Below are positions 970 to 27,216 of a stretch of DNA of 64,000 bases, piece after piece. The first letter of the stretch is position 1; the number at the start of each line of letters is the position of its first letter. The notes below the pieces were generated by a model that was not told the DNA's origin, made no database searches, and saw nothing but the letters and a program-made list of their open reading frames with translations. The translations under genes were made by a program, and so were the position numbers. Source of the DNA: Colwellia sp. MB3u-45 (lineage in GTDB: Bacteria > Pseudomonadota > Gammaproteobacteria > Enterobacterales > Alteromonadaceae); the NCBI RefSeq assembly GCF_014077005.1, contig NZ_JACGVC010000044.1, positions 372,001-436,000 of the forward strand, read 5' to 3'.

Positions 970-1671
970 ATGAAACACCTTAAATACGCGGAAGCAAGTA
1001 AATGTGAACGTTGTATTAGATATCAAAATTGCGTTGTCGCACAGTTATTAGGAAGTACGCCTTATATTAAAACCGTTAATTCATATTTACTAAGTACTCA
1101 TGAACACTTATATCATGCGGGTGATGAGCTGAGTGCACTTTATATAATTAAATCAGGGGCAATTAAAAATTATGTTACCCATAATGATGGTGATGAACAA
1201 ATTCTCAATTTTTTAATTCCAGGCGATATCCTTGGCCTTGATGGTTTAGATACACAGCAATATGCTTCTTCGGCTATTGCCTTACAAACCTCAGCTGTTT
1301 GTGCTATTCCATTACAACAGTTTAGAAATATACTCGCTGAGTTAGTACCAAGTTGGTTAATCAAGCTTGCCACCGATAATTTGAGTAAACAGGGGCGTAA
1401 TATTGCTTTGTTAAATAAGAAAAAAGCTAAAGCACGGATAGCGGCATTTTTAATGGATATGGCTGATAACTACAAATCCCTTGGCTGTTCAGATAAGAAC
1501 TTTGAATTAAGTATGTCTCGTGATGACATAGGTAATTATCTAGGGCTAGCATCAGAAACCGTCAGCAGAACATTGACTCAGTTACAACAAGAAGGCTCAG
1601 TAAAAATGGAACGGAGAAATGTAACGATTATAAATGCGCCGCACTTAAGTGAAATGGCGCAACATCGTTAA
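970..1671 (+). CDS. FNR-type transcriptional regulator with complete Fe-S cysteine set
   Basis: A 233-residue Crp/Fnr-family activator. Cys12, Cys15 and Cys21 have the spacing of E. coli FNR Cys20, Cys23 and Cys29, and Cys111 in the SAVC stretch matches FNR Cys122, so all four ligands of an oxygen-labile [4Fe-4S] cluster are present. The cyclic-nucleotide-type beta-roll covers about residues 40-125. The recognition helix near residue 190 reads ASETVSRTL, retaining the Glu, Ser and Arg that in FNR contact TTGAT half-sites. By family it should dimerise and bind DNA when oxygen is low. FNR-like dyads precede at least five genes or operons over the next 26 kb, which suggests this is their regulator. 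It may be a paralogue of a main FNR/EtrA elsewhere; the window cannot show that. Confidence 0.92.
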   Translation: MKHLKYAEASKCERCIRYQNCVVAQLLGSTPYIKTVNSYLLSTHEHLYHAGDELSALYIIKSGAIKNYVTHNDGDEQILNFLIPGDILGLDGLDTQQYASSAIALQTSAVCAIPLQQFRNILAELVPSWLIKLATDNLSKQGRNIALLNKKKAKARIAAFLMDMADNYKSLGCSDKNFELSMSRDDIGNYLGLASETVSRTLTQLQQEGSVKMERRNVTIINAPHLSEMAQHR

Positions 1672-2019
1672 GCACAATAGGATGATTATTGTAAAATCAT
1701 CTGTTTGTCTAGGTTAAGATCTCAGTTAAGGTCTCGGTTAAATACATGCGTTGTGCCTGTTAAAAGGCAAGCATAAAACACTTTTTATGCTCAACGGATA
1801 TTTTTCAGGGCTTCATAAATGCTGCTGTTATCTTGCTATTTCGTGCAGTAGGTAACTCGTTATTATGTATTACTGATTGACTCAATATGCATGTACTTAT
1901 TTGAGTACAAGCCTTTGGTAAAAAGAAACAGGTTTTATTATCTATGGGTGAATTAATCAAGATATTACATCAAGATTAATACAGTTTAAGACGTTATACT
2001 TTAGTTAATCTTTCTTGAC
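1672..2019. other. Intergenic region after the FNR-type gene, with small stem-loops
   Basis: No gene seen. A tract at about 1712-1740 repeats a 12-13 base GTTAAGGTCTC-like unit. Two short hairpins follow, TGCCT/AGGCA near 1757-1772 and GCATAAA/TTTATGC near 1776-1796. They may end the FNR transcript but lack a clear T-run. Confidence 0.4.
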
Positions 2020-2061
2020 CTGATTATTATCAGTTTAAAAAATCCCCTTCTTATTTATAGT
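2020..2061 (+). promoter_or_regulatory. FNR-type operator and -10 element for the usp-glucan synthase operon
   Basis: A perfect dyad, CTGATTATTATCAG, lies at 2020-2033 and matches the FNR core TGAT-N4-ATCA. TATAGT at 2056-2061 is a plausible -10 element. The implied start is near 2068, which puts the dyad centre (2026.5) at about -41.5, the class II FNR position. The transcript leader would be about 155 bases. Confidence 0.65.
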
Positions 2062-2223
2062 CTAGCTAACATACATTATTACTGCCTTGGCGCATTTCAA
2101 CTGTGCCTGAAATATAGCACTGACAATGTTTAGCGTATTACCACGAATTCCTTTCGTATTTACGTTTATCCCTAAAAAAGAGGCTCAATAATTGTGTCCT
2201 TAACTATGAAGGAGATGTATATC

Positions 2224-3204
2224 ATGCGTGATATTTTAATTTGCCTTGATGGATCCGCTATTTCTAAGCAGGCTATTCCCTATGCATTGGCGATAGCACA
2301 TGCTTTTAAAGCAAAAATTACCCTGCTACATGTACTGGAATATTCAGACAATAATATTAAAACACCGGTTGACCCTTTTCTTTGGGCGCTACAAAAACAA
2401 GAAATAGAAATATATCTTGATGATATTATGTCAAATTTTCCAGCCAACACTAATATAGTTACTAGCCATATTGTTGAAGGTAAAGCGGCAGAAGAAATTA
2501 GTCATTGGATAAAAAAACACCCTGTCGATCTGGTCGTACTTTGCAGTCATGGTGCCAATGGTTATTCGCAGTGGCCATTAGCCAGTAATAGTCAAAAACT
2601 ACTTTTTGGCAGCAAAGTATCAACATTATTGGTGCCAGCAAAAGAGCATCAACAACATCAAGAACAACCCCTTCACTGTAAAAAAATATTGATACCGCTA
2701 GACGGCTCTGTTTGGGCTGAAAGCGTATTACCTGTTGCGCTAAGCATCGCCAAAGAGCAGCAGGCAGAAATACTATTAGCCCATGTTGTACCAGAGTCTG
2801 GACTGACGCATATTATGCCGTTGAACAATGATGAAATAGCATTGGAAAATAGTATTCAGCGACATAATGAACAAGTTGCAGCCAATTACCTCGAGCAGGT
2901 GAGAAAACAATTATCATCGTTAACCACTTTAGACATCAGTTCTATGCTGATCCCCAAACATGGCGTGTGTGACGAGTTATTACAAGTGGTAGCGCAAGAT
3001 GACATCGATATGGTGATTATGAACGCGCATGGTCGCTCTGCTAGAGCAGGGCGTTACCATGGTAATATTGCCATGGATTTTTTGGCAAATAGTAAAGTGC
3101 CCGTGTTGTTGGTAAAAGGTATAACACCGCAAGATGATTTACTCAGGCCGGGCAATACTGATCAATCTGAGTTAGAAGGACGTTATCCTCAGAGGGCTTA
3201 TTAA
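2224..3204 (+). CDS. Tandem-domain universal stress protein
   Basis: Two USP domains in one chain. The first opens with DILICLDGS and closes with GSKVSTLLVPA near residue 140. The second opens with KILIPLDGS near 155 and ends with SKVPVLLVKG near 300. Each has the Rossmann-like first strand with LDGS and an SHG or AHG stretch, but the classical ATP loop (G-x2-G-x9-G-S/T) is only partly kept. An upstream GTG at 2194 also gives an open frame, but AAGGAG at 2209-2214 lies 9 bases before ATG 2224, so 2224 is preferred. The stop overlaps the next start by one base (TAATG), so the two genes are translationally coupled. An FNR-like site lies upstream. Confidence 0.88.
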   Translation: MRDILICLDGSAISKQAIPYALAIAHAFKAKITLLHVLEYSDNNIKTPVDPFLWALQKQEIEIYLDDIMSNFPANTNIVTSHIVEGKAAEEISHWIKKHPVDLVVLCSHGANGYSQWPLASNSQKLLFGSKVSTLLVPAKEHQQHQEQPLHCKKILIPLDGSVWAESVLPVALSIAKEQQAEILLAHVVPESGLTHIMPLNNDEIALENSIQRHNEQVAANYLEQVRKQLSSLTTLDISSMLIPKHGVCDELLQVVAQDDIDMVIMNAHGRSARAGRYHGNIAMDFLANSKVPVLLVKGITPQDDLLRPGNTDQSELEGRYPQRAY

Positions 3205-6200
3205 TGAATCCTCAGGCGGAAATATCGAATGAAGTTTTGTTAGCGATAAAGGCGCAGGAGTTGGCTAAAAGTCAAACCGTGTCGTATCGTCCGCCTGCTC
3301 AAATCCCTTTACTTAATGCACTGCCCAAAATACCCAAGTGGCTTGAGCAGGCAAAGCTCTTGTTTAATACCCGTGATGTTAATACCGCGAAAGTTGCTGA
3401 GTGGGTCTATGACAATGGCTATGTTGTTGACCGCGCAATTACTCAAATACAAATCGATATGCCAACAAGTTATTATCGGCTGTTACCGAGTCTACAAAAT
3501 ACCAGTACTCAGTCATTACCGCGAGCCTATTATCTGGCTAGTGGCTTATTAGCGGCCACAGGTATCCAACTGTCGTTAAATTTTTTGGTTAAATTTGTTA
3601 AAGGCTATCAACAAGAAACGACGCTCAATATTTCTGAATTATGGGCCTTACCGACACTATTGCGTTTGGTTTGTATCCAATTAATTGTCGAAGCGGTAGA
3701 CAATATAGTGCCTGAACTCACTGTGCCTTATTCGCGTGACGATATTAGCCAGCCTTTAATGGTTTCTCGTGATGAAATTGATTATTTAAGTCGAGCTATT
3801 CATTGTCTTTCAGTGATAGAAACAATCCCATGGCGTAAGTTTTTTGAGCAAGTGAGTGCGGTTGAGGAAAAGCTTCGCCATGAGCCGGCAGACATATATC
3901 AAAGCCTTGATTTTGACAGCCGTGATAGGTATTGCAAAGTCATTGAAAACTTAGCAAGGGCAACTGCCCATGATGAAGCTCATATTGCCGAGCGAGCGGT
4001 CGCATTAGCCTGTTGTGAAAGTGCCAATGGCGAACGTTATTCCCATGTAGGTTATTGGCTGGTTGATGAAGGATTAATGGCGTTAGAAAAAGATTTAGGT
4101 TATCAGGTGTCTTGGTGGCAGCGTTTTCAGCGTTTTTGTGGCAAATTTTCCAGCCTATTATATTTATTAGCGCTAGCATTCTCTGTGATATTGGCTGAAG
4201 TTGTGGTTGTTGTTTATCTCTATCAAAATGATGCTCAAGCCTTAACATATTTGGCGGGTTTGGCATTAACATTAATACCCGCGTCCATGTTATCGATTGC
4301 TATTACTAATTGGTTGATTACCCTCATATGGCCAAGTCGAATTTTAAACAAGCTCGACTTTGAACAGCATATAGACCCCCAATATAAAACAGCTGTTGTT
4401 ATACCTAGTATGTTAAGTAGTAATAGCGATATCGACATATTACTCAAACAAATAGAGCTTCATTATTTGTCAAATAGCGATCCTGCACTGCGTTTTGTGT
4501 TGTTAACTGATTATCTTGACGCGCAAGTGCAGAGTATTGCCAGTGACGCGGATTATCTTAATCGTGTTAGTCAAGGTATCAGAGCACTCAATAGTAAATA
4601 CGGTGCTAGCAATACCGGACCATTTCACTTATTACACCGAGAGCGACGTTATAACCTCAGTGAAAATTGCTGGATGGGCTGGGAGAGAAAACGCGGTAAA
4701 TTAAGCGATTTCAATCGTTTTCTTAGCGACAAAAACTGTGAGGCTATTTTTGTTCATGAGGGAGAGCCGCTAGGGCTGAATGATATTCGTTATGTAATCA
4801 CCCTTGATAGTGATACCCAGCTTTGTCGGGGGGCTGCGGCTAAGCTGATTGGTACCTTGGCGCATCCGCTGAACCGCGCAGTTTTTGATGATAAAACAAG
4901 CAAGGTTATTGCAGGTTATACCATTATTCAACCCCGTATTGAAATCGCTCCTACCATACACCGCCACACTTTGTTTACTCGATTGGCCTCTGGCGATCGT
5001 GTTATTGATATATATAGCCATGCCGTGTCTGATGTGTATCAAGATCTTTTTAGTACGGGCATTTTTGTTGGCAAAGGTATTTATGAGGTCGCTAGTTTTG
5101 AGCGCAGCCTCAAGCAATGTATTCCGGAAAACACCATACTAAGTCATGATCTATTCGAGGGTATCTTAGGCCGGGTAGCACTGGCTTCTGACATTGTGCT
5201 TTATGAAAACTTCCCGACACATTATTTCAGCTTTAGTCGCCGTTTACATCGGTGGATACGCGGAGATTGGCAGCTCATGCCATGGCTAGCCAATAGTTTA
5301 TTTCAGGCTGATGGCACCAAGGTTAAAAATCGTTTTGGTGTGATTGAACGATGGAAAATAATCGACAATTTACGACGCAGCCTTTTTGCACCAACATTGC
5401 TTTTATGGCTTATTGCGGGCTGGCTATGGTTGCCCGGTAACGCCCTAGTTTGGACCGCAATGGCGCTACTTGCCCCTGTTGGACATAATTTTTGTCATTT
5501 CATGTTAGGGGTCGCCCGTGCGGCTAATTTTAAAACTTTGATGCATTCTTTTATTGTGCCACGTGAGGTGGCGGGTCGCTGGTTATTGTTACTCATATTT
5601 CTGCCTTATGAAGCCATTATCGCCACAGATGCTATCGCTCGAACACTGTATAGAATCACGGTTAGCCGAGGTAAAATGTTAGAATGGGTAACCGCAGCTG
5701 ATACTGACAATCAGCTCAATGGTGATGATACTCGGTTGTTTTATTGGCGTGAAATGAGCACAAGTATACTGCTGACCTTATCGCTAGCTGCAGCCGTTGC
5801 TAGTGTTAATTTAGCGGTATTACCTATTGCTGCACCTTTGTTTTTTTTGTGGCTTATGGCACCAGAAATAGCCAGGGTACTAGGGCGTACACTATCGAGT
5901 GACAAAGAAAAATTAAGCGATGATGAGGTGATATTTTTACGCCGTTTGGCCCGACGAACCTGGTTGTTTTTTGAGACCTTTGTTGGACCCTCTGATCATT
6001 GGTTACCGCCTGACAATTATCAAGAAGACCCGCATGGCACTGTTTCACATCGCACCTCTCCAACCAATATTGGCATGATGCTTTTGTCTAATGTCTCTGC
6101 TTGGGATTTTGGTTACCTTGGCCCAACAGATTTGGCTGCTCGTTTACTGGCCAGTATGAATACACTGACTAAACTTGAGCATTATCGTGGTCATATTTTC

Positions 6201-9200
6201 AACTGGTATGACACTAAAACATTAGAAGTACTCTCACCTCGTTACATTTCAATGGTTGATAGCGGTAATTTGGCGGCGGCTTTAATGACCCTTGAAAAAA
6301 GCTGCCAAGAAGTGCAAAACACCGCTATATTTACCTGTTCACGTTGGGATGGCTTGATGGATAATATCGCCTTAATTGAAGAGTCTTTGGCGTTACTTAA
6401 CACAGACAAACACCATGACTTTACCCTATTAGTCACACTAATAGCTGATATCCGTCATAAGGCCAATAAAGCCAAAAAAAATTCAGCGCTTTGGTGGTTA
6501 ACCATACACGAACTTTGTCAAGATGACTGCGTTAATTTCGACCATGTTTTGGTGACAACACTGGCTAAAAAATCTTTGGTTTCAAGGGTTTCACAACTGC
6601 GAGATGTCCGTGTTTGGTTAGGGCGTCTACACCAACATCTACGTGATATGTTACGTGATATTGACCGCTTGTTACCTTGGTTGTCTGTGTTATTGCAAGC
6701 CCAGCCAAAAACCTTGCACCAAGATACAAGTAGCTACTACCAAGCCATAAGTGCTTTTAATCAAGTTTTAAAGCCAACGCTAAGCTTGGCTGAAGTGCCT
6801 TTCGCTTGTGAGTCAGCTCAAGCGCTTATTGCCACTTTACGTGACGCCAAGCCAAGTCTTTGGCTAGAGGAACCCGCGAATGATTTTACCTTATGGCTTA
6901 ATAAGCTGGAGACTGCAGTAAGTGAATCCAAAAAGAATGCTCAAACCCTGCAAGTAGAATTAAATACTATCGCTACATTGGCGAGTGAAGAAGTATCGGC
7001 GATGGATTTTCGTTTACTCTATGATCAAGACGCTGCACTTTTTCATATTGGTTGGAATGCCACTACCGGAATTATGGATACACACCATTATGACTTACTC
7101 GCATCAGAAGCGCGTTTGGGGAGTATTGTCGCGATAGGAAAGGGAGATGTATCGATAAAACACTGGTTTACTTTGGGGCGTTCTGTCACCAAAGTTGCTG
7201 GCCGTAGTGTTTTACTTTCTTGGGGAGGAACAATGTTTGAGTATTTGATGCCGCGGATATTACTGCGAAGTCACGCTGGAACTTTATTGGCTCAAAGTGA
7301 ACAAGTGTCGGTCGATGAACAAATTAAATTAGCTGAAAAACGTAATACCCCTTGGGGAATTTCTGAGTCAGGGTATGCGGCGGTTGATTTTCAACATAAC
7401 TATCAATATCGTGCCTTTGGTGTGCCCAGTTTGGGTTATAAGCGTGGCTTAGAGGAAGATACGGTTATTTCACCTTATTCTACCGCACTGGCATTAGCTA
7501 TTTATCCACTTCGCGCCGTGCAAAACCTTCAAAAATTAACCAAGCTCGGTATGATGAGCCTTTATGGTATGTATGAAGCGATTGATTACACCCCAGGGCG
7601 AGTCGCTAAGAATCGACGTTTTTCTATTGTTCGTTCTCATATGGCGCATCATCAAGGCATGATATTAACTGCGTTAGATAATGCGATATTTCATGATCAG
7701 GTTGCCCAGCGTTTTCAGTCGTGTCCCATGGTGCAAACGGTAGAATTGCTTTTACATGAACAAATACCAACAACCCATGCCCTTGAGTTTCCTATTGATG
7801 CAATTACCGAAGCGGAAATCAATCATGTACCTATGCATCAATTGCCACACCTACCCATTTGGAAACCTAAACTGCATGGCGTTATTCCGCAGCTGCATAC
7901 TTTAAGTAATGGTCGTTTCACCACTTTGCTGACCGACTCGGGATCAGGAGGTATATTATGGCGCCATAACGCTTTAACACGTTGGTCAGCGGATTCAACA
8001 CTCGATAATCAGGGATTATGGATCTACATCCGTGACCTTGATAGTGGAGAAATTTGGTCTGCAGGTAGGCAACCGGTAAATAAACGCGCTGATAAATACG
8101 AAGTGGTATTTCATGCGCATATGGCAGAATTTAATCGCCACGATAAAGGCATTAGCTTACGTATGGAAATCGCGGTCGCGGCAAATGATGATGTAGAAGT
8201 CAGGCGATTAAGCTTTATAAATGAAACGGCCGCGTCAAGAAGGCTTCAAGTCAGCACGTATGCTGAGGTGGTCTTAACCCCAAGCGACGCCGACCAAAGT
8301 CATCCCGCTTTTAGCAAATTATTTGTTCACAGTGAATTAGCCAGCAACATGAATGCATTGATTTTTGAACGTCGTGCGCGCTCACCACAAGAAAAATCTC
8401 CCGCTATGATGCATCGATTACTGAGCGATAGCGACGCGGTAACATTGGTTGGCTATGAGACTGACCGTGCTAAATTTATGGGTAGAAATGGCTCGATACA
8501 AAGTCCACAAGCCGTCACTGACGGGGTTTCGAAAACTCTTGGCTGGACACTTGATGCAGTTATGTCTCTACAGGTAAATGTTGAATTATCACCTTATCAT
8601 AGTGAATCTTTTGCCTTTGTTACTATTGCAGCCAGTTCGCGACACGCATTGTTTGATGTTTGCCAATGTTATGAAGTTTACTCTGCCATTGATTTACTTT
8701 TTCATGATGCCTTATTTAAAGTCAGTAATGAGATGAAAACCTTCGATTATGCCGTTGCTTATTTACCCGAATTACAGCAATTATTGGCACTCATTATTTA
8801 TCCGGTTGACGTATTACGCGCCGCAGATAAAGTGATCACGGATAACTTATTGGGTCAGTCAGCTCTTTGGCCATTTAGTATCTCGGGTGATTTCCCTATT
8901 TTGTTGATGCGACTTGTTGATGAAACGAATGTGGCGTTATTACGACTGTTATTTTTTTCTTATCGACGTTGGCATCATCAAGGGATCAAGATTGATTTTG
9001 TGATATTACAATCAGGCCCTTCTGGTTATGATGACAAGTTTGGTGCGCAAATACAGCAACTTATACATGAGTTAGACATTGAAACTTTAGTGGCGCAAAG
9101 GGCGGGTATTCATGTCATTCATTCAGATCAAATCTCAGTTCCGCAAACACATTTACTTGAGGCGAGTGCGAATGTCATTTTAGGTGCACATTCTTCATTG

Positions 9201-11720
9201 AAAGAGCAGTTAGCGCTCGCTTATCGTCAGACAGAACTCTTGCCTCCTTTTCGGGGGATGGTGGCTCCTGAAGAAGTACCTGACATACCAAAACTACAGC
9301 GCCGCAAAGATTTGGCTTTTTTTAACGGTCTTGGTGGCTTTACTGATAAGGAATACATTATTTATCTTGAGGCAAATAAATCCACACCAGCCCCTTGGTG
9401 TAACGTGTTAGCCAATGCTAATTTTGGCAGTATTGTCAGCGAAGTTGGCGGTGGTTATACTTGGGCTGGCAACAGTGGTGAAAATCGACTCACGACTTGG
9501 ACGAATGATCCCGTTATTGACCAACCCAGTGAAGCGGTTTATTTACGTGATGAACAAACAGCACAAGTGTGGACAGTAACCCCAAAACCTATAGGAACAG
9601 GTAACCTTTGCGAAGTCACCCATAGCGTGGGTTATAGTCGTTGGCGTAGCCATTGGCATCAATTAGAGCAAGAACTAACCGTATTTGTCGCCCATGAAGA
9701 CCCGATTAAAGTCACTCGTCTGCGCTTAAATAATACCAGCCCTGTCGCTCGACGTTTAACAGTTACTTATTATGCTGAACTCGTAAACGGGGTTAGTCGA
9801 GCCCATAGTGGCTCGCATATATTTACCGAATATTTAGCTGATGAGGGCGTGATTTTAGCTAAAAATCGTTGGAGTAGTGATTTCTCGACTAATGTAAGTT
9901 TTTTATTCTCTGATTATCCAGTGCATGCTTTTACTACAGACAGAGCTGAATTTATAGGTCGTGAAGGGCATTTCTCTAAGCCTGCCGCATTAGCTCGTTG
10001 GGGAATGAGTGGCAAAGTAGGCGCGGCAGTTGACCCATGTGCCGCTTTGCAAGTGCATATTGATTTAGCCCCTGATGAAGAAGTCGATATTCACTTTATC
10101 TTGGGTCAAGGTAAAAATGATAATCATGTGCAACAACTCATTAAGAAATGGCGCTCTGCTGGTGTTATTGACCAAGATTGGACATTAATGAAGGCGCACT
10201 GGCAAAAGGTCTGTAATGCCATCAAGGTAGAAACACCGTCACTGTCGTTTAACTTGATGATGAATCAATGGCTTATCTATCAAACCTTAGCGTGTCGAAT
10301 ATTTGCGCGTTCAGGCTTTTATCAATCAAGCGGTGCTTATGGATTTCGCGATCAACTTCAAGACGTGATGGCGCTAGTAAACATAGAACCCGCTTTGGCT
10401 CGAGCGTATATTCTTGAGTGTGCAGCACACCAGTTTGACCTGGGTGATGTACTACATTGGTGGCATCCACCTTATAGTAGAGGTGTACGAACACATTGTT
10501 CTGATGATTTGATGTGGCTACCTTTTGTTACCTCCTATTATGTTGAAACCAGTGGCGATAGTTCGATATTGCATGAGAAAGTCCCGTTTTTACTTGGAGA
10601 GCCCTTAACCACACAGGAAGCAGACCGATACAGTAAGTATGAAAGTTCAAGCGAAAGCTATTCGCTTTTTGAACATTGCCAACGGGCAATCGAACGTGGC
10701 ACTGATTCATCTGGAGAGCATGGTTTATTGCTAATAGGTACGGGTGATTGGAATGATGGCATGGACCGAGTGGGTGTTCGAGGTCGGGGTGAGAGCGTTT
10801 GGTTATGTTGGTTTGCTATTGCTGTGATTGATGCCTTTACGGTTATATGCGATCAACAACAGCGAAGTGATCTGTCTTTACAATGGCGTAAGCGAGCTAA
10901 AGATCTTTGCCGCGCTGTGGAAAATAATGGCTGGGATGGCGCTTGGTATCGACGAGCTTTCGATGATATGCAACTCCCTTGGGGCTCAAGTGAGTGTCAA
11001 GAATGTCGTATCGACTCTATTGCACAATCGTGGGCAACTCTTTGTGGTAAAGCTGATAAAACTCGCGCTAAGCAGGCATTGACCTCGGCTCAAAATGAAT
11101 TAATTGATCAAGAGCATAAATTAGCTCGACTACTATGGCCCCCGTTTGACGCAACCATGCGAGACCCAGGTTATATCAAGGCTTATCCTCCAGGCACTCG
11201 AGAAAATGGTGGACAATACTCGCATGCGGCTACTTGGTTAGGTTGGGCGTTGGCAAAAGACAGAGATGGAGACGGGGCGATGCAAATATTTAACATGCTC
11301 AACCCTATTGAGCGTTCTAGCACGACAGAAGAAATGACCACTTATCAAATAGAACCTTACGTAATGGCAGGAGATATAGCAACGGCTGGGCCTCATATGG
11401 GTCGTGGGGGTTGGTCTTGGTATACGGGCTCAGCAGCGTGGGCTTATCGCTTAGGAACTGAAGCCATTTTAGGCATACGTTATCGTGATAAATACCTCTT
11501 GATTGACCCTTGTATTCCTAAGTCATGGGGCAGTTATAGCGCTACGTTAACTCGAGAAAACGGCACTGTTGAGCTTGCAGTGAAAGACCCTGAGGGAGTC
11601 GGCTGTGGTGTCATTCAAATCAGTGTTAATGGCAAGGTAATAACAGGTCAGCAAGTCGCATTGCCGAGTGATAATGAACTATTAAGGGTTGAAGTACTAT
11701 TGGGGAAAGAGACGAATTAA
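3204..11720 (+). CDS. Cyclic beta-glucan synthase-like protein (GT84 plus GH94 modules, NdvB/Cgs type)
   Basis: A 2,838-residue membrane protein, the size of rhizobial NdvB and Brucella Cgs. Hydrophobic segments lie near residues 310-375, 735-830 and 860-890. The glycosyltransferase-84 core holds the DSDTQ motif near residue 533 and RRLHRWIRGDWQ near 679-690, a QxxRW-like acceptor motif. A glucoamylase-like module starts around SHRTSPTNIG near 948. The C-terminal glycoside-phosphorylase-like GH94 part contains YGFRDQLQD near 2378 and GDWNDGMD near 2513, where family 94 enzymes keep the general-acid Asp. The family makes periplasmic cyclic beta-1,2-glucans by initiation, elongation, length control and cyclisation. 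Linkage here is not provable from sequence. It is coupled to a USP and lies behind an FNR-like promoter, unlike the usual osmoregulated setting. Confidence 0.88.
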   Translation: MNPQAEISNEVLLAIKAQELAKSQTVSYRPPAQIPLLNALPKIPKWLEQAKLLFNTRDVNTAKVAEWVYDNGYVVDRAITQIQIDMPTSYYRLLPSLQNTSTQSLPRAYYLASGLLAATGIQLSLNFLVKFVKGYQQETTLNISELWALPTLLRLVCIQLIVEAVDNIVPELTVPYSRDDISQPLMVSRDEIDYLSRAIHCLSVIETIPWRKFFEQVSAVEEKLRHEPADIYQSLDFDSRDRYCKVIENLARATAHDEAHIAERAVALACCESANGERYSHVGYWLVDEGLMALEKDLGYQVSWWQRFQRFCGKFSSLLYLLALAFSVILAEVVVVVYLYQNDAQALTYLAGLALTLIPASMLSIAITNWLITLIWPSRILNKLDFEQHIDPQYKTAVVIPSMLSSNSDIDILLKQIELHYLSNSDPALRFVLLTDYLDAQVQSIASDADYLNRVSQGIRALNSKYGASNTGPFHLLHRERRYNLSENCWMGWERKRGKLSDFNRFLSDKNCEAIFVHEGEPLGLNDIRYVITLDSDTQLCRGAAAKLIGTLAHPLNRAVFDDKTSKVIAGYTIIQPRIEIAPTIHRHTLFTRLASGDRVIDIYSHAVSDVYQDLFSTGIFVGKGIYEVASFERSLKQCIPENTILSHDLFEGILGRVALASDIVLYENFPTHYFSFSRRLHRWIRGDWQLMPWLANSLFQADGTKVKNRFGVIERWKIIDNLRRSLFAPTLLLWLIAGWLWLPGNALVWTAMALLAPVGHNFCHFMLGVARAANFKTLMHSFIVPREVAGRWLLLLIFLPYEAIIATDAIARTLYRITVSRGKMLEWVTAADTDNQLNGDDTRLFYWREMSTSILLTLSLAAAVASVNLAVLPIAAPLFFLWLMAPEIARVLGRTLSSDKEKLSDDEVIFLRRLARRTWLFFETFVGPSDHWLPPDNYQEDPHGTVSHRTSPTNIGMMLLSNVSAWDFGYLGPTDLAARLLASMNTLTKLEHYRGHIFNWYDTKTLEVLSPRYISMVDSGNLAAALMTLEKSCQEVQNTAIFTCSRWDGLMDNIALIEESLALLNTDKHHDFTLLVTLIADIRHKANKAKKNSALWWLTIHELCQDDCVNFDHVLVTTLAKKSLVSRVSQLRDVRVWLGRLHQHLRDMLRDIDRLLPWLSVLLQAQPKTLHQDTSSYYQAISAFNQVLKPTLSLAEVPFACESAQALIATLRDAKPSLWLEEPANDFTLWLNKLETAVSESKKNAQTLQVELNTIATLASEEVSAMDFRLLYDQDAALFHIGWNATTGIMDTHHYDLLASEARLGSIVAIGKGDVSIKHWFTLGRSVTKVAGRSVLLSWGGTMFEYLMPRILLRSHAGTLLAQSEQVSVDEQIKLAEKRNTPWGISESGYAAVDFQHNYQYRAFGVPSLGYKRGLEEDTVISPYSTALALAIYPLRAVQNLQKLTKLGMMSLYGMYEAIDYTPGRVAKNRRFSIVRSHMAHHQGMILTALDNAIFHDQVAQRFQSCPMVQTVELLLHEQIPTTHALEFPIDAITEAEINHVPMHQLPHLPIWKPKLHGVIPQLHTLSNGRFTTLLTDSGSGGILWRHNALTRWSADSTLDNQGLWIYIRDLDSGEIWSAGRQPVNKRADKYEVVFHAHMAEFNRHDKGISLRMEIAVAANDDVEVRRLSFINETAASRRLQVSTYAEVVLTPSDADQSHPAFSKLFVHSELASNMNALIFERRARSPQEKSPAMMHRLLSDSDAVTLVGYETDRAKFMGRNGSIQSPQAVTDGVSKTLGWTLDAVMSLQVNVELSPYHSESFAFVTIAASSRHALFDVCQCYEVYSAIDLLFHDALFKVSNEMKTFDYAVAYLPELQQLLALIIYPVDVLRAADKVITDNLLGQSALWPFSISGDFPILLMRLVDETNVALLRLLFFSYRRWHHQGIKIDFVILQSGPSGYDDKFGAQIQQLIHELDIETLVAQRAGIHVIHSDQISVPQTHLLEASANVILGAHSSLKEQLALAYRQTELLPPFRGMVAPEEVPDIPKLQRRKDLAFFNGLGGFTDKEYIIYLEANKSTPAPWCNVLANANFGSIVSEVGGGYTWAGNSGENRLTTWTNDPVIDQPSEAVYLRDEQTAQVWTVTPKPIGTGNLCEVTHSVGYSRWRSHWHQLEQELTVFVAHEDPIKVTRLRLNNTSPVARRLTVTYYAELVNGVSRAHSGSHIFTEYLADEGVILAKNRWSSDFSTNVSFLFSDYPVHAFTTDRAEFIGREGHFSKPAALARWGMSGKVGAAVDPCAALQVHIDLAPDEEVDIHFILGQGKNDNHVQQLIKKWRSAGVIDQDWTLMKAHWQKVCNAIKVETPSLSFNLMMNQWLIYQTLACRIFARSGFYQSSGAYGFRDQLQDVMALVNIEPALARAYILECAAHQFDLGDVLHWWHPPYSRGVRTHCSDDLMWLPFVTSYYVETSGDSSILHEKVPFLLGEPLTTQEADRYSKYESSSESYSLFEHCQRAIERGTDSSGEHGLLLIGTGDWNDGMDRVGVRGRGESVWLCWFAIAVIDAFTVICDQQQRSDLSLQWRKRAKDLCRAVENNGWDGAWYRRAFDDMQLPWGSSECQECRIDSIAQSWATLCGKADKTRAKQALTSAQNELIDQEHKLARLLWPPFDATMRDPGYIKAYPPGTRENGGQYSHAATWLGWALAKDRDGDGAMQIFNMLNPIERSSTTEEMTTYQIEPYVMAGDIATAGPHMGRGGWSWYTGSAAWAYRLGTEAILGIRYRDKYLLIDPCIPKSWGSYSATLTRENGTVELAVKDPEGVGCGVIQISVNGKVITGQQVALPSDNELLRVEVLLGKETN

Positions 11721-16613: not shown

Positions 16614-16706
16614 GTAGCACCTAGTTTCGGTGGAAAAGTGAGTGTGATCTAAAGTGATTTATTTTAAGTGTTGTGCTAAGAATAAAAATATTTTTATATC
16701 TATTTT

Positions 16707-17375: not shown

Positions 17376-17715
17376 TTGACCCCTCCTTAACAATATTGTA
17401 CTTATTGTTTTTGCTCATCTCAGCAAGTTGTTTTCGCTGTTTATATCAAGTTTTAGCGTCAACATTTTGTAGTTTCAATGGCTTGATTCTCATTAAAAAT
17501 CAGCATTAGCTATAAATATCGCTAATGTAAATACATTATAACTTTAAAACACTAAAGCAACTTTAAACAGAATAATACGAAATTGAACTGATAAATATCA
17601 GCGTGTAAATTAATAACTGGGATTAGCATTATGCTTGGTGAATTAACCCAAGCAGTAATGACCATATTACGAAAAAAAAAGTAAATTTATAATTTTGTAA
17701 TATTAAGGAACCCAG
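17376..17715. other. Divergent promoter region between the response regulator and lon
   Basis: A 340-base AT-rich region. It holds the FNR-like lon operator listed separately and a second, imperfect dyad (TTGATTCTCATTAA at 17483-17496). The imperfect one has no convincing -10 at the matching distance for the response-regulator gene. Confidence 0.5.
17588..17632 (+). promoter_or_regulatory. FNR-type operator upstream of lon
   Basis: A perfect dyad, CTGATAAATATCAG, lies at 17588-17601 (core TGAT-AAAT-ATCA). A weak -10-like TAGCAT at 17624-17629 or CATTAT at 17627-17632 implies a start near 17636-17639, placing the dyad centre at about -41.5 to -44. This is the class II geometry seen at other promoters in the block. 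Confidence 0.55.
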
Positions 17716-20184
17716 ATGTCAGACATTAATGTTAAAGGTATTAAAGTAAAAGAGGACAATAAGCAGCAATCAGTTGATGTAAATCAACAGCCTAGATCGG
17801 TAGTCGCTATTCCTGATAATCTGCCGGTATTGCCATTACGAAATCTAGTTTTATTCCCTTACAACGTCAATTCTATTTCTGTTGGTCAAGCGCGCTCGTT
17901 GAAATTGCTCGAGGATGTGGCCGCAGGTAATAACTTATTGGCAACCCTTGCTTATAAAGATCAAGACGTTGAAGAGCCAGCACCTTTAGATCTTTATCAA
18001 GTGGGTTGTATTGCACAGATATTACGAATTTCAAAGGGTGAAAATAATCACTCCACAGTATTGTTACAAGGGCTTGATAAATTTTCGGTTGACGCTTGGC
18101 TGAGCGAAAAACCCTATTTACGAGCAAAAATTCATCTTGTTGCTGATATTGAACCAGAAGCAGGAGATATTGAAGCACAAGCAATACGCAATAACTTGTT
18201 AAAGTCGTTTAGCGAATTAATTAACATACTTTCATATTTACCTAAATCATTAGTAAGTGCATTAAGCCAAACAGAAGATTGTCGTCAACTGGTCTATTTA
18301 GTCAGTTCGAGTATGCGAATGAACATGGCTGACGCTCAAGACATACTTAATATGAAAGATGTTGTGGCAAAAATGCTTAAATTAACCGATCTTATCCAAC
18401 ACGAAATGGAGGTACTTGAGCTAGGTAAGAAAATACAAAGTTCAGCCCATGGTGAAATGGACAAGGCACAACGTGATTATGTTTTGCGCCATCAAATTAA
18501 GGCTATGCAACGCGAATTGGGTGAAGAAGATAGCCAACAAATTAAAATAGAGCAATACCTTAAGAAAATCGAAACCAGTGGCATGTCAACCGAAGCAGAA
18601 GAGCAAGCAAGGCAGGAAATTTCTCGTTTAGAACATATCCCACAATCATCTTCAGAGTCGGGCGTGATATTAACTTATCTTGATTGGTTACTCGCGTTGC
18701 CTTGGAAAAAAACGACGGAAGACATGCTTGATATTAAACAGGCTGAAAAAATTCTTAATGAAGACCATTATGGCTTGGAAAAAATAAAGCAGCGCATTTT
18801 AGAGTACTTGGCGGTCAGGCAGCTGCGGCAGAAAAGGTTATTAACTAAGCCATTAGATGAGAGTGCATCGTCACCCCATATTCGCCGAGAACGAGAAGGC
18901 GTTATTCTTTGTTTTGTTGGGCCTCCAGGCATTGGAAAAACGTCATTAGGGCATTCAATAGCACATGCCTTGGGACGTAAGTTGGTCAGTATCAGTTTAG
19001 GAGGCATACGTGATGAGGCTGAAATTCGGGGCCATCGTCGTACCTATATTGGTGCGATGCCGGGTCGGTTTATTAAAGCGTTGCGCGACGTGGGGACTAA
19101 TAATCCGGTTATATTGTTAGATGAAGTTGATAAAATTATTGGCGATCAGCGCGGTGATCCTGCGTCGGCGCTACTTGAAATTTTAGATCCAGAACAAAAT
19201 AGCGAATTTCGTGATCATTATCTTGAAGTCGCTTTTGATTTTAGTCAGTTAATGTTTATTGCCACGGCTAATCAACTCGATAACATTCCTGGGCCGTTAC
19301 GAGATAGATTAGAGGTTATAACCTTGTCGGGCTATACCGATGATGAAAAATTTCATATCGCGAAGCGTTATTTATTACCTCGGCAATTACGAGAAAATAG
19401 TCTACATATTAATGAGTTAACTATAAGTGACACAGCGATGCTGACACTTATTCGTCAATACACCCGAGAAGCGGGCGTACGTAGTTTGGATCGACGTTTA
19501 GGTGCTATTTGTCGAAAATTAGTGATAAAAATTGCCACAAAAAGTGGTCAATCGCTCACTGTTGATAACACCATGTTGGAAGAATTAATGGGTAAACCGC
19601 CGTTCTCTTATGATCTCGCCGAACGTACTGAACGTCCAGGCGTAGCAACGGGTTTGGCGGTAACCGCTGTTGGGGGCGATATATTATTTATTGAAGCCAG
19701 CGCTATGCCAGGCAAAAAAGGGTTGACCATTACCGGACAATTAGGCGATGTAATGCGAGAGTCAGTTGAAGCAGCGTTAAGTTACGTAAGATCCCAAGCC
19801 AAGCAATTAGGTATTGCTGAAGATTTTTTTGAGCATACTGATATTCATGTTCATGTACCCGCTGGGGCAACACCAAAAGATGGGCCGTCTGCGGGCGTTG
19901 CTATCATTACCGCGTTAGTGTCGTTATTAACTGATAGGCCTATTTTTCATCATATTGGCATGACGGGCGAAATTACCTTACGGGGTTTAGTGTTACCTGT
20001 GGGGGGGATAAAAGATAAAATTTTGGCCGCACACCGCGCCGGTTTAACCACAGTTATTTTACCCAGTAAAAATGAGAAAGACTTGACTGATTTACCTGAG
20101 TCAATTCAGAAAGAAATGCGTTTTGTGTTGGCTGAACATGTCGATACTGTATTAGATGAAGCATTAACAAAGCCGATTCAATAG
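17716..20184 (+). CDS. lon: ATP-dependent Lon protease (LonA type)
   Basis: 822 residues, slightly longer than E. coli Lon (784). The N-terminal substrate-binding LAN domain begins near [13 protein letters not shown] (about residue 36). Walker A is GPPGIGKT at 402-409, followed by Walker B ILLDEVDK. The proteolytic Ser725 lies in PKDGPSAG and Lys766 in GGIKDK, an intact Ser-Lys dyad. Lon degrades misfolded and regulatory proteins in the cytoplasm. It is not beside clpP/clpX, the usual place in gammaproteobacteria. Its setting among stress genes with an FNR-like site suggests an accessory second copy, though this cannot be confirmed from one window. Confidence 0.95.
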
Positions 20185-22529: not shown

Positions 22530-22994
22530 TTAATCTACTTTTACTTCTATTTTTTTGTGCTTTTCTGCGACGAGTTTAGGCACAATAACTTCTAATACAC
22601 CGTTATGGCAATGCGCTTCAATTTTTTTTGCATCTTGGGCATCAGGTAAATTGAAACTACGATAAAAGCTTCCGTATGAACGTTCGAGTCGATAGTAATT
22701 TTCTCGTTTATCTTCCGCTTTGCTTTCTCTTTTTCCTTCAATCACTAAATTACCATTGTCCATGGAGACATTAATGTTTTTAGGATCAACGCCAGGAATA
22801 TCGGCTCTGATTATATAGCGATTGTCTTGTTGCTCTATATCCGCAGAAGGTTGCCAAACATCAGTCAGTAAATCTGAACTCCGGCTATTCATCGGAAACC
22901 CCTGACCAAAAAACCGATCAATTTCGTTAGATAATTGCGAAAACAAGGGCAGTTGTGGTCTTGTTGATAATGGTTGATGTTTAAATAATGTCAT
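22530..22994 (-). CDS. Hsp20 small heat-shock protein
   Basis: 154 residues. The alpha-crystallin domain runs from about residue 45 to 140, with WQPSADIEQQDNRYIIRADIPGVDP at its start and the GVLEVIVPK motif near its end. It ends with a short basic tail without a clear IxI motif. The Hsp20/class A type holds unfolding proteins for refolding or degradation. It is distinct from the IbpA-type protein at 41375-41848. GGAGAT precedes the ATG. An FNR-like operator lies about 200 bases upstream, with a long leader. Confidence 0.93.
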   Translation of the reverse strand: MTLFKHQPLSTRPQLPLFSQLSNEIDRFFGQGFPMNSRSSDLLTDVWQPSADIEQQDNRYIIRADIPGVDPKNINVSMDNGNLVIEGKRESKAEDKRENYYRLERSYGSFYRSFNLPDAQDAKKIEAHCHNGVLEVIVPKLVAEKHKKIEVKVD

Positions 22995-23161: not shown

Positions 23162-23202
23162 ATATTATCACCAAGTTATATTGGCGATCCTGATAAATGT
23201 CA
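23162..23202 (-). promoter_or_regulatory. FNR-like operator and -10 element for hsp20
   Basis: On the minus strand the dyad reads TGACATTTATCA (plus-strand 23191-23202), one mismatch from TGAT-N4-ATCA. The minus-strand hexamer TAATAT (plus 23162-23167) is a good -10. The implied start near 23155 puts the dyad centre at -41.5. Confidence 0.5.
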
Positions 23203-23372
23203 TTTATATGAAGTTTTTTGGCGTGTCATTTTGTGTGTAGATAGAGAGGTAAATGAGGCGTTGATTCTTATCTTTATCTTGGCAATTTTATTAATCCAGC
23301 GAGCAATTTTACGGGGTATTGCTCTACTTTTTGATGAATAACACTTATTTTTCATCGTTAGTGACCATTAAC

Positions 23373-23413
23373 TGATCTATCTCAGCTACTTGTTAGAAAA
23401 AGTAGAGATAAAT
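23373..23413 (+). promoter_or_regulatory. FNR-like operator for the cytochrome c/USP unit
   Basis: TGATCTATCTCA at 23373-23384 is one mismatch from the FNR core. A -10-like GATAAA/TAAATT stretch lies near 23407-23413, implying a start near 23420 and a dyad centre near -41.5. The ATG follows about 70 bases later. This is the weakest of the five sites on the -10 side. Confidence 0.42.
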
Positions 23414-23489
23414 TAACCTGTGCATTATTACTTAGATGTTAGGTTTATAAAGTAGTTGTTCTTTTTTGAATCGGTGTCGAGGAGTTGTT

Positions 23490-23945
23490 ATGAAATATTT
23501 ACTTTTTTGTTGCTTTACTTTAATCGCTATTAGTCTGAGCAGTTGTGACTTAGGTCCTGATTCACCCAGAGGCTTTAGTTTGCCAAAAGGTGATATTGCT
23601 AAGGGAGCGATGGTATTAACAAAATACCAATGTTTAGCTTGTCATAATCTCAATGGTGTGGAACAAGCTGAAGGTATAAATAACCCTGATTTAAATGTAC
23701 GTTTAGGAGGTAAATCAACCAAGGTAACAACGTATGCCGAACTTGTGACCAGTGTTATTAATCCTTCACATAAACTATCTAAAGGTTATGCCCTTACCGC
23801 TATTGCTGTTGACGGAGAGTCTAAAATGAGCAATTTTAATGATGTGATGACGATAACAGAGTTGGTTGATTTAGTAACATTTTTACAACCTCATTATGAG
23901 TTGGTGCCTTATAGAAGAACTGACTATCAATTTTATCACTATTAA
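23490..23945 (+). CDS. Lipoprotein monohaem cytochrome c
   Basis: 151 residues from ATG 23490, chosen over a TTG at 23466 because GAGGAG precedes it and a clean signal peptide then starts MKYLLFC. The lipobox ISLSSC implies a lipid-anchored periplasmic protein. The haem motif CLACH lies near residue 49, and a KMSNF stretch near 112 offers the axial Met of class I cytochromes. It probably shuttles electrons at the membrane; the partner is not visible. A USP gene follows after 30 bases, an unusual pairing. The final YRRTDYQFYHY tail is not a known motif. Confidence 0.82.
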   Translation: MKYLLFCCFTLIAISLSSCDLGPDSPRGFSLPKGDIAKGAMVLTKYQCLACHNLNGVEQAEGINNPDLNVRLGGKSTKVTTYAELVTSVINPSHKLSKGYALTAIAVDGESKMSNFNDVMTITELVDLVTFLQPHYELVPYRRTDYQFYHY

Positions 23946-23975
23946 AAATACAGGTTATTAAAAAGGGTAAATAAC

Positions 23976-24413
23976 ATGCATAAACTTTTATATTTAGTTG
24001 GCGTTGACGGCAGTGAATGGAGTAACAGAGCTGTTGAACGAGCGGTTCATCTTGCACAAAAAACAGGTGCAAGTGTTAAATTAGTGTATGTGATTACTTG
24101 GCAAGAATTTCAGCCAATGATGATTGAGGGGGTTGCGCCACCTCCGCTTGATAAAAAACAAATAGAACATGATGTGAATGAAAAAATTTTACAACCCTCG
24201 ATTGAAAAATTTAAAGCAGAAAAGGTTGATTTGAGTAGTGAATATATCTGGGGTGAGCCTGTTGATGCATTACTTCAACAGGTAAATGATTATCACGTTA
24301 ATATGCTCTTTGTTGGTCGGCGAGGTCGATCGCGCTTTGCTGATATATTACTGGGTAGTGTGGCGAATAAACTGGCACATTGTGTTGGTGTGCCTATTGT
24401 TTTAGTTCCATAG
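23976..24413 (+). CDS. Universal stress protein, single domain
   Basis: 145 residues. The first strand and loop read LYLVGVDGSEWSNRA. The end carries the canonical ATP-binding loop, GRRGRSRFADILLGSVANKLAHCVGVPIVLVP, fitting G-x2-G-x9-G-S. It is therefore likely a nucleotide-binding USP, in contrast to the tandem protein at 2224. AAGGG lies 7 bases before the ATG. It is cotranscribed with the cytochrome c lipoprotein 30 bases upstream. Confidence 0.9.
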   Translation: MHKLLYLVGVDGSEWSNRAVERAVHLAQKTGASVKLVYVITWQEFQPMMIEGVAPPPLDKKQIEHDVNEKILQPSIEKFKAEKVDLSSEYIWGEPVDALLQQVNDYHVNMLFVGRRGRSRFADILLGSVANKLAHCVGVPIVLVP

Positions 24414-24937: not shown

Positions 24938-25720
24938 CTATCCTTTGGTTGTTTTGTCTGTTGATTTAATAAGACCGCTTATCAGCTCCATGGGTAAAGG
25001 GAAAATAATAGTAGAATTTTTCTCACCAGCAATTTCTGTTAAAGTTTGTAAATAACGTAACATAATCGCATCAGGCTCTTTGGCCAGTTGATTGGCGGCT
25101 TGGGTCAGGTGAGTTGACGCCTCTAATTCCCCAGTGGCATGAATAACTTTGGCTCGACGAGTTCGCTCTGCTTCGGCTTGTCTGGCAATAGCGCGGATCA
25201 TAGTTTCATTTAAATCAACGTGTTTAATTTCAACATTAGACACTTTTATGCCCCAACTGTCGGTTCTGACATCTAAAATGGTTTGAATATCGGCATTTAA
25301 CATATCTCTATTCGCGAGCATTTCGTCTAATTCATGTTGCCCTAACACCGAACGTAAGGTGGTTTGTGCAAGTTGAGACGTTGCCTGTAAATAGTCTTCG
25401 ACATTGATAATCGCTTTTTGTGGGTCAATAACTCGAAAATAAATAACCGCATTAACTTTTACTGAGACATTATCGCGGCTGATAACGTCTTGGCTAGGTA
25501 CATCCATCACTACTATACGTAAATCAACTTTTACCATTTGTTGGATAAAGGGAATAACAAGAATAAAACCAGGCCCTTTCACTTTATAAAATCGTCCAAG
25601 TAAAAAAACTACCCCGCGTTCATATTCTCGTAAAATTCTAAAAGCACTGAAAAAAAAGGCAATAAGTAAAAAAATAATTGAGCCGGTGAATAATTCTGAA
25701 TTATTAAATAGTGAAGTCAT
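24938..25720 (-). CDS. Slipin/stomatin-like SPFH membrane protein
   Basis: 260 residues. One N-terminal membrane segment ([16 protein letters not shown]) is followed by a full SPFH domain starting [14 protein letters not shown] and including [18 protein letters not shown] helical C-terminal part ([20 protein letters not shown]) is typical of stomatin-type oligomers. The first codons overlap the end of the nfeD-type gene by 17 bases, the usual NfeD1b-slipin arrangement in which the protease acts on or with the SPFH scaffold in the inner membrane. AGGAG precedes the ATG. Confidence 0.95.
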
Positions 25721-27140
25721 TATCTTGCTCCTTAGTTGTTGTGTTGATTGCGGGCGCTAAAACAAGGGTTAGGCCATTAATTGCTTGCACTTGTACCTGT
25801 TGACTTTTTTTTAAGGCTAGTGGGCTACTAGCCGCCCAACGCTCGCCATTAAAGAGCACATAACCCTTATCAGTGAAGTCATTTTCCACCGTAACCCAAG
25901 CATTAATTATTTCTTCTTGACCACTGACGATTTTATTTTTTCGGGCTCGGTAGATAAAACCCAAGGCAAAGACAATAAAGAGTGCAGAGACAAAAGTAAA
26001 ACTGGCAATTAATGGCAGTGAAACTTTAAATTGCTCAAGTTTAGTGTCGAATAAAAATATGGAGCCTAAAACAAATGCGCTAATACCACCGAGGCCAAAA
26101 ATACCAAAACTTGGTATCAGTGATTCCATCACCATGAGTGTTACGCCTAACAAGAGTAGGGCAACACCCGCAAAATTCAGGGGTAATAACTGCAGGGCAT
26201 ATAAAGCGATAAGTAATGATATACCGCCGATGATGCCCGCTATGCCGACACCAGGGCTGTAGAATTCTAATAACAAACCATAAATACCCAGTAGCATTAA
26301 AATATAGGCAATATTAGGGTCGGTAATCGTGGCAATAAATTGGCTACGCCAGTCTGGTTTTTTACTCAGTATTTCAGCACCTTGTAAGGATAATTTAATA
26401 TTTTGCTGTTTTATCGCTACCTGCTGACCCTCTAGTTTATTTAATAACACTTGTGGCGACTGAGCGATTAAGGTGATGACATTTTCTTTTAGTGCTTCTT
26501 TCGCTGTTAACGTTGCCGCTTCTGTAACGGCTTTTTCAGCCCATAGTTCATTACGAGAACGTAATTGTGCGAGTGAACGAATATAGGCAATGGCATCATT
26601 TAAGACCTTTTTCTCCATCGCAGAAGGTGCGTTTTTTTGTGCCTTATCTTCTGCTGGTGGCGTCATCGGCCCAGCAATATTAACCGGTGTCGCAGCGCCC
26701 AGAGTGGTGGCGGGAGCCATAGCAGCAATATGGCAAGCATAAAGTATGTAAGTACCTGCACTCGCTGCGCGTGCTCCTTGTGGGTAAACTAAACAGGCGA
26801 TTGGAATAGTAGAATTTAAGATACTTTTATTAATGTCACGTAGGCTGGCACTTAAGCCACCAGGAGTATCGAGTGTGATAATAATTAAAGGGATGTTACT
26901 GGCCATATTAGCACTGTTTATTTCTCGCACTAAATAGTCACTAACGGCAGGCCCAATAGCACCTTTGATGGTTAATAATGGCACAACCAAAGTGTTGGCA
27001 TTAATACTTATCTCTTGCTGAACGCTATTGGCTACTGGCTTTAAATACGGCGTTTCTGCTGTTCCTAAGGCATGCATTGAGAGCAAAGCACAATATAAAA
27101 TCAAGAATATTCCGCACAATTTACACATAACAGTTTCCAT
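25704..27140 (-). CDS. NfeD1b-type membrane serine protease
   Basis: 478 residues: a signal peptide ([17 protein letters not shown]), then a ClpP-fold protease domain at about 45-230, with ITLDTPGGL, and [21 protein letters not shown] carrying the candidate nucleophile Ser. Four or five membrane helices follow at about 275-400, and a C-terminal OB-fold NfeD domain ends the chain. It partners with slipin in membrane quality control. ATG 27140 is used; ATG 27128 is a close alternative. An FNR-like dyad lies 63 bases upstream. Confidence 0.93.
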
Positions 27141-27174
27141 TAATCGCTGAATTATGAGCTTAGTTGTACTTGGT

Positions 27175-27216
27175 CAATATCTCTAACTTGTGTTGGAAAA
27201 TGCTGATAAAGATCAG
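27175..27216 (-). promoter_or_regulatory. FNR-type operator upstream of nfeD-slipin
   Basis: A perfect dyad, CTGATAAAGATCAG, lies at 27203-27216 (core TGAT-AAAG-ATCA). A minus-strand GATATT (plus 27176-27181) can serve as -10. The implied start near 27169 puts the dyad centre at about -40.5. The leader is short, about 30 bases. Confidence 0.55.

Follow-up and report, generated by a model that had tools for sequence, protein, structure and literature searches.

The window analysed here (64,000 nucleotides of Colwellia sp. MB3u-45, positions 372,001 to 436,000 of contig NZ_JACGVC010000044.1, below C44) encodes near its left edge a four-cysteine FNR-type regulator, here called FNRx, and carries several copies of one operator, CTGAT-N4-ATCAG (N4, any four bases), in front of neighboring genes. 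Regulator, genes and operators belong to a roughly 47-kb block, at about 352.1 to 399.2 kb of C44 between ybaB and frnE, which is probably an accessory island served by a dedicated FNR paralogue of the four-Cys type, with a shifted operator. The fuller reading, to which we give a probability of about 0.5, is that of a horizontally gained low-oxygen survival island that brings an oxygen sensor of FNR type and an operator used by it alone, and so runs orthogonally to the host FNR network. A sequence-only reading of the window had proposed a single FNR-type regulon over 26 kb, which proves to be the right-hand half of the island. The five dyads on which that proposal was built, three perfect and two with one core mismatch, are all present, and an exact genome scan added three perfect ones to the left. 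The regulator and these sites are as follows.

970 to 1671, + strand: FNRx, four-Cys FNR-type regulator (Pfam cNMP_binding and HTH_Crp_2), recognition helix LASETVSR
2020 to 2033, no strand: perfect operator CTGATTATTATCAG, with the -10 hexamer TATAGT at offset 22; same in Colwellia sp. MB02u-6
17588 to 17601, no strand: perfect operator CTGATAAATATCAG; same in MB02u-6
27203 to 27216, no strand: perfect operator CTGATAAAGATCAG, with the -10-like hexamer GATATT at offset 21 towards nfeD; same in MB02u-6
23190 to 23203, no strand: imperfect operator CTGATAAATGTCAT, facing hsp20, with TAATAT at offset 22; same in MB02u-6
23372 to 23385, no strand: imperfect operator CTGATCTATCTCAG, facing the cytochrome c gene, with TAAATT at offset 23; same in MB02u-6
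C44:352333, C44:364585 and C44:369443: three further perfect operators, left of the window

The key feature of these sites, overlooked in the sequence-only reading, is a constant outer pair. Once one base further out is read, all three perfect dyads of the window become CTGAT-N4-ATCAG, while the standard FNR box is given as TTGAT-N4-ATCAA in the part of PMC4505428 available to us. The two imperfect copies, CTGATAAATGTCAT and CTGATCTATCTCAG, sit between hsp20 and the cytochrome c gene and have one mismatch each within the TGAT-N4-ATCA core. Across the genome (4,165,602 bases in 59 contigs) we counted 227 TGAT-N4-ATCA cores, 49 TTGAT-N4-ATCAA and 17 CTGAT-N4-ATCAG, so that the outer C..G is found on 17 of 227 cores. 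Six of these 17 fall between 352,333 and 399,216 of C44 (46.9 kb), three of them inside the window and three further left, vs 0.13 expected from the rest of the genome (P about 5e-9); for the 26-kb stretch alone the counts were 3 seen vs 0.07 expected (P = 5e-5). The bare core was weakly enriched in the window (7 seen vs 3.5 expected from the genome; P = 0.06). A site density above background thus holds strongly for the 14-mer and barely for the core, which is nearly at background. A chance gathering was accordingly rejected for the 14-mer, though not for the bare core, and the proposal of one local FNR-type regulon is upheld.

Placement separates the sites of the block from the others, "inside" meaning here within open reading frames (ORFs) of at least 70 or 100 amino acids and not within annotated genes. 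All six block copies of CTGAT-N4-ATCAG are intergenic, while 10 of the 11 outside the block lie within open frames (the exception is C49:146832); the island thus holds six of the seven intergenic exact sites of the genome. Viewed from the core, the six intergenic exact cores of the block all carry C..G, which at the genome rate of 17/227 has a chance of about 2e-7. Three other exact cores of the block do not carry it: two are inside genes and one is in an 88-codon ORF of unknown standing. TTGAT-N4-ATCAA was considered as the box of this regulon and rejected: among the sites listed, one of the genome's 49 falls in the block, and that one is inside lon. Of the 15 examined among the 49, 12 were inside ORFs. 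The view of the island sites as standard FNR boxes was therefore abandoned, since all six intergenic perfect ones carry the outer C..G. Outside the island, a universal stress protein gene of the host (L044, C44:40487) has a perfect TTGAT-N4-ATCAA upstream and may be a canonical-FNR counterpart of the island's universal stress proteins.

The regulon had been described as a local block; it is in fact part of a strain-specific island. We compared the region after dnaX in 14 other genomes of the genus (a 17th genome, 66% complete, had no dnaX match). In 10 of the 14 loci, the first shared gene after apt-dnaX-ybaB is frnE (two of these loci have one or two ORFs in the gap), so that the block is absent at the conserved junction in relatives, as in a genomic island. 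The remaining four comprise one remnant, two loci with other genes and one contig end. The remnant (genome G520) consists of fragments of nfeD and slipin that lie between ybaB and fabH (L158:10415-11967). The full island and FNRx were found in the same two of 17 genus genomes, the strain itself and G521, in which FNRx is 97% identical and the block proteins are 89-99% identical; the FNRx coordinates in G521 equal those in Colwellia sp. MB02u-6 (L050, G513). Canonical FNR is present in 16 of the 17. Judging from this distribution, an ancestor of these close strains probably acquired the block, from a source and in a direction that we infer, and G520 now seems to be losing it. Beside the G520 remnant are two similar short stem-loop repeats, and frnE was not found there either.

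The sites are kept with the genes in the relative, as the sequence-only reading had asked of its regulon. MB02u-6 has 15 exact CTGAT-N4-ATCAG sites, of which five are in the block (at acs, focA, usp1, lon and nfeD), all intergenic and all identical to those of the window strain, N4 included; the sixth operator, at adh, has one change (CTGAC). Outside the block MB02u-6 has 10 sites, 8 of them within ORFs and 2 elsewhere. Over the eight operators, 1 of 112 columns changed between the strains vs 52 of 638 within 40 bases of them (Fisher, 0.0015). This 40-base comparison is the fair one, as stretches that align poorly (FNRx-usp1) inflate the 169 changes counted in 1,259 more distant intergenic columns.

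FNRx itself belongs to the Crp/FNR superfamily, with PF00027 (69.6 bits), PF13545 (61.4) and PF00325 (50.1) all above cut-off. Its best solved-structure match is the FNR-type regulator chain 8qto (E = 9e-37), in which Cys 29, 32, 38 and 131 of 8qto_A align with C12, C15, C21 and C111 of FNRx in an alignment read by eye; the four-Cys homologue announced at position 970 is thus borne out. The arrangement is that of the four-Cys FNR type, with three N-terminal cysteines (C-x2-C-x5-C) and a central one, which we take from family knowledge to be cluster ligands. With 164.5 bits against NCBIfam Fnr (PRK11161; cut-off, 228), FNRx falls outside the canonical Fnr subfamily. The host canonical FNR is a separate gene (C44:674188), 35% identical to FNRx over residues 41-227. 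No close FNRx orthologue was found in 147 genomes of the family (E ≤ 1e-40) or in 369 genomes of the class and 394 of the order (E ≤ 1e-45), samples that overlap; the other matches listed were 34-41% identical, with V, I or M in their helices. A plasmid search gave no match at 1e-30, and a genome contig scan, which detects close relatives only, had MB02u-6 as its sole match. FNRx, encoded near the operators, is the best candidate for their reader. Further paralogues of Crp/FNR type (L183-L190), 26-31% identical to FNRx, are found in seven other Colwellia genomes, and seven of these eight paralogues lie about 8 kb from canonical fnr.

The recognition helix of FNRx keeps the conserved Glu, Ser and Arg (SETVSR vs VETISR) and is also SETVSR in MB02u-6. 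The residue before the Glu, presumably Val208 in E. coli FNR numbering, is Ser in FNRx; 17 homologues have V, I or M there, and 15 loci of canonical FNR in Colwellia have V, a count that left out the eight distant paralogue loci and the MB02u-6 FNRx (L167). In the available part of PMC1274295, this position (residue 180 in CRP) makes contact with the base it corresponds to, and the two vary together within the family. A code in which this Ser reads C was considered; it is weakened by the pairing of Ser/Pro with T, not C, in HcpR, as far as that source goes (PMC1274295). Because of this HcpR pairing we claim an operator shifted relative to the canonical FNR box and not a solved residue-base code.

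Promoter geometry was assessed by scoring -10-like hexamers at offsets 0-99 on the nine gene-facing sides of the six perfect operators, with a matrix of approximate textbook frequencies. The summed score had a single clear peak at offset 22 (10.2; the next best of the 100 offsets reached 0.5), and none of 20,000 random sets of nine block intergenic hexamers attained it (mean, -17.6; standard deviation, 5.5), although the nine sides are not independent, an operator between divergent genes being counted twice. Offset 22 places the operator centre at -41.5, the class II position, relative to the start sites implied by the hexamers. The hexamers at this offset are TATAGT (usp1), TAGCAT (lon), TAAAGT (luxR), TAGCCT (adh) and TATTCT (P-type ATPase); the operators between the divergent pairs luxR/lon and ATPase/adh have one on both sides. 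Together with the imperfect and other sites listed above, the class II position is matched at usp1, lon, luxR, adh, ATPase and hsp20 and missed by one base at nfeD and cytochrome c. The class II geometry proposed from sequence thus holds at most sites of the regulon. The -10 spacing is broadly as claimed at the five genes concerned (offsets 21-23), and it is the best of 35 offsets only for usp1 and cytochrome c. In that scan (offsets 10-44) the class II hexamer also ranks best at the ATPase gene; at hsp20 two other hexamers outscore it.

The gene content of the regulon had been given as stress and envelope functions. These are there, together with fermentative and carbon genes that start about 20 kb before the window (L049), where the left half of the island holds the following.

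Behind operator 352333: acetate-CoA ligase, acs (PRK04319, 848.7 bits; cut-off, 729)
Next: pyruvate dehydrogenase (PDH) E1 alpha (TIGR03182, 449.9 bits; cut-off, 393.85)
Next: PDH E1 beta, identified by reading
Next: E2-type acyltransferase, below its cut-offs
Next: small acyl-carrier-like protein, identified by reading, with no Pfam match
Last in the acs operon: phosphoenolpyruvate (PEP) synthase (PRK06464, 1065.6 bits; cut-off, 598)
At operator 364585: formate/nitrite-family channel, here called focA, divergent from the formate dehydrogenase operon
Formate dehydrogenase operon: formate dehydrogenase alpha-type protein, fdhF (TIGR01591, 799.6 bits; cut-off, 666)
Same operon: two AsrA/AsrB-like electron-transfer proteins, below cut-off
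At operator 369443: cation P-type ATPase, divergent from a zinc alcohol dehydrogenase-type gene (adh)
After adh/ATPase: universal stress protein, by resemblance

The acs operon offers a comparison beyond the genus. Homologues of the acetate-CoA ligase (54-58% identical, tblastn) occur in 17 of 368 other gammaproteobacterial genomes searched, followed by PDH genes at 11 of the 17 loci. In the 300 bases upstream, 10 loci had a core with at most one mismatch vs 2.8 expected, and 7 had none. One-mismatch cores are common by chance, and the comparison rests on a control from the same loci: outer T..A was present on 8 of 11 such upstream cores (0.22 expected from the remainder of these loci; P = 1e-10) and outer C..G on none of the 11. 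Three of the cores were exact TTGAT-N4-ATCAA (0.05 expected), and two loci had outer A..G. Because the T..A boxes are far above chance and C..G is missing, the operon is apparently FNR-controlled elsewhere via the usual box, while in Colwellia the box carries the island variant.

The window half of the island and its right flank contain these genes.

2194 to 3204, + strand: tandem universal stress protein (usp1), first gene of its operon (Pfam Usp, two stretches; an ATG at 2224 is also possible)
3204 to 11720, + strand: large glucan synthase-like protein of 2838 amino acids, with homologues annotated "glucoamylase family protein"
11841 to 12428, - strand: weak VIT1-like membrane protein (25.3 bits, below the cut-off of 28.1)
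12999 to 16613, - strand: CheB-CheR-PAS-HisKA_3 hybrid sensor kinase (domain search)
16707 to 17393, - strand: LuxR-type response regulator, divergent from lon (domain search)
17716 to 20184, + strand: Lon protease (TIGR00763, 916 bits; cut-off, 608)
Between Lon and Hsp20: HHH protein
22530 to 22994, - strand: Hsp20 small heat-shock protein (domain search)
23466 to 23945, + strand: c-type cytochrome with a lipoprotein-like start (Cytochrome_CBB3, 22.9 bits, below the cut-off of 27; CLACH heme motif visible)
23976 to 24413, + strand: universal stress protein (usp2; domain search)
24938 to 25720, - strand: slipin/stomatin-like protein (HflK/HflC-type matches below cut-off)
25704 to 27140, - strand: membrane serine protease homologue of NfeD type (weak SppA-domain match), preceding slipin
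29289 to 29903, + strand: frnE-like gene of the DsbA family, the right flank of the island, seen in genomes without it

Some names are tentative: we take the glucan synthase-like protein to be a cyclic beta-glucan synthase (NdvB) and the protein at 25704-27140 to be NfeD, both as in the sequence-only reading, and the gene at 29289-29903 to be frnE. With residues 401-1400 of the glucan synthase as query, the plasmid homologues listed were 35-46% identical, and homologues of 39-44% were found in 7 of 146 other genomes of the family, none of them among the five same-genus genomes of that sample. The kinase and LuxR regulator (12999-17393) use the lon operator in the opposite direction, and a second signalling layer may sit under FNRx. 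In MB02u-6 an extra block between usp2 and slipin (L124:8763-13102), absent there in the window strain, holds by reading two MacB-like permease ORFs, an ABC ATPase and a membrane-fusion-type protein. At the island's right end lies a Matrixin-like metalloprotease (27879-28766; HELGHALGLGHS) with, by reading, a PEP-CTERM-like tail, absent from that place in MB02u-6. To the left of the island (L048:725-8017) is a tandem pair of closely similar receptor-like genes (TonB-dependent by reading), with a TolQ/ExbB-ExbD-TonB-type cluster some 3 kb on. Elsewhere in the window are a small secreted-looking protein of repeated GKCGEGK units (35562-35939), presumably reminiscent of copper-binding EGKCG peptides, and a five-tRNA cluster (55230-55828) with duplicated Leu(TAG) and Gln(TTG) genes and one for Met.

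As we picture it, FNRx would hold a [4Fe-4S] cluster and dimerise when oxygen falls; the dimer would bind the CTGAT-N4-ATCAG operators, several of them centred at -41.5, and activate by class II contact. The acs-PDH-PEP synthase operon, formate dehydrogenase, the formate/nitrite channel and alcohol dehydrogenase would then be switched on jointly with the stress proteins, glucan synthase, Lon, Hsp20 and NfeD-slipin. The circuit may be at least partly insulated from the host FNR, since its operator departs from the host FNR box at both outer positions. The block thus looks like a self-contained low-oxygen survival kit, apart from host FNR.

Several observations weigh against this picture. The peak at offset 22 is carried by only five sides of three operators (usp1, lon/luxR and adh/ATPase); one other hexamer outscores the class II one at adh, lon, luxR and nfeD; and acs, focA and fdhF have no -10 hexamer at the class II offset, the off-position ones being TATACT at 31 for acs and TATATT at 16 for focA. 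No operator within 2 mismatches precedes FNRx itself (positions 1-1794). The supposed specificity residue, Ser, cannot alone account for the C and is non-decisive. In its own genome, a search with FNRx returned only FNRx and canonical FNR at E ≤ 0.001 and failed to report CRP, so that distant Crp/FNR members could be missed. As to the acquisition of the block, there is no tRNA at its ends (none in L049; the nearest in the window is at 55 kb), no integrase was recognised in a scan that covered part of the ORFs, and the full island is confined to two closely related strains, which leaves no deep phylogenetic footprint.

Four other explanations were weighed. The host canonical FNR could read the island operators, with FNRx minor or non-functional and the outer C..G merely tolerated. 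The core and the class II spacing would fit any FNR, a canonical FNR is present, and acs genes elsewhere have ordinary FNR boxes; a tolerated variant, on the other hand, would drift on either side, whereas the six intergenic cores of the block all have C and G, and the only TTGAT-N4-ATCAA listed in the block is inside lon. The host stress gene L044, with its TTGAT box but no -10 at offset 22, hints weakly at a separate host regulon. We consider control by the host FNR quite unlikely. Control of the island could instead be joint, with both FNRs binding its sites or forming heterodimers, like Fnr1 and Fnr3 of Herbaspirillum seropedicae, for which the available part of PMC5934665 reports paralogue-specific motifs differing at positions 1 and 14 as well as hybrid sites. 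The six perfect operators are all symmetric in their outer bases, with no hybrids of C and T half-sites, and joint control appears unlikely.

A real regulon might also respond to another signal, FNRx sensing nitric oxide (NO), redox or general stress rather than oxygen. Its targets mix fermentation and proteostasis genes, and the family members DNR and NnrR sense NO (PMC1274295, in the part available); set against this, the four cluster-type cysteines are retained with FNR spacing, and acs-PDH, formate dehydrogenase, the formate/nitrite channel and alcohol dehydrogenase suggest anaerobic metabolism, which makes another signal doubtful. That the dyads gathered by chance in an A+T-rich genome is hardly credible: the weak enrichment of the short core would allow it, but clustering of the 14-mer, intergenic placement, conservation between strains and -10 spacing are separate lines of evidence and all positive.

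Among known systems, the FNR of E. coli and Aliivibrio and ANR of Pseudomonas share with FNRx the Crp/FNR fold, C-x2-C-x5-C with a fourth Cys, the N4 spacer, the helix Glu, Ser and Arg (residue roles as in the available part of PMC4505428) and, at several promoters, the class II position. FNRx differs from these in the outer pair of its operator, C..G not T..A, in the Ser in place of Val before the Glu, in a score below the NCBIfam Fnr cut-off and in having six of seven intergenic exact sites in its own island. Fnr1 and Fnr3 of Herbaspirillum are paralogous FNRs with motifs differing at positions 1 and 14 and with targets that include alcohol dehydrogenase and universal stress proteins. There, as far as the source extends, the outer bases of the Fnr3 motif are poorly conserved and 23 to 39 promoters are listed for each group (PMC5934665), whereas in our case the pair is a constant C..G, restricted to a single accessory block. 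Pseudomonas putida likewise has several four-Cys FNRs per cell with different roles; its three vary in how sensitive they are to oxygen, and a common FNR box is expected for them (PMC4505428, in part). In HcpR, DNR and NnrR a base of the half-site co-varies with CRP residue 180, but Ser goes with T there, and the main text of PMC1274295 contains no CTGAT string. The chlorite dismutase gene of Ideonella dechloratans, on a composite transposon and under FNR-type control, is mobile too; the available part of PMC7349173 does not describe an FNR of its own with its own operator. The target types and the principle of paralogue-specific FNR motifs are already known, from Herbaspirillum. What is new, as far as our searches show, is an operator with a constant C..G that is limited to a single accessory block, the one in which the regulator is encoded as well; the strings CTGATNNNNATCAG, CTGAT-N4-ATCAG and CTGATN4ATCAG were not found in the open-access collection searched.

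Acquired genes usually need wiring into host regulators. This block seems to bring a copy of a global oxygen sensor with a DNA address shifted by one base pair per half-site, which would keep it under its own control. It offers a small natural case for measuring the insulation of FNR paralogues and a candidate orthogonal FNR/operator pair, and it suggests that, in marine bacteria under low oxygen, carbon flow, fermentation and protein quality control can be transferred and turned on together as a single unit.

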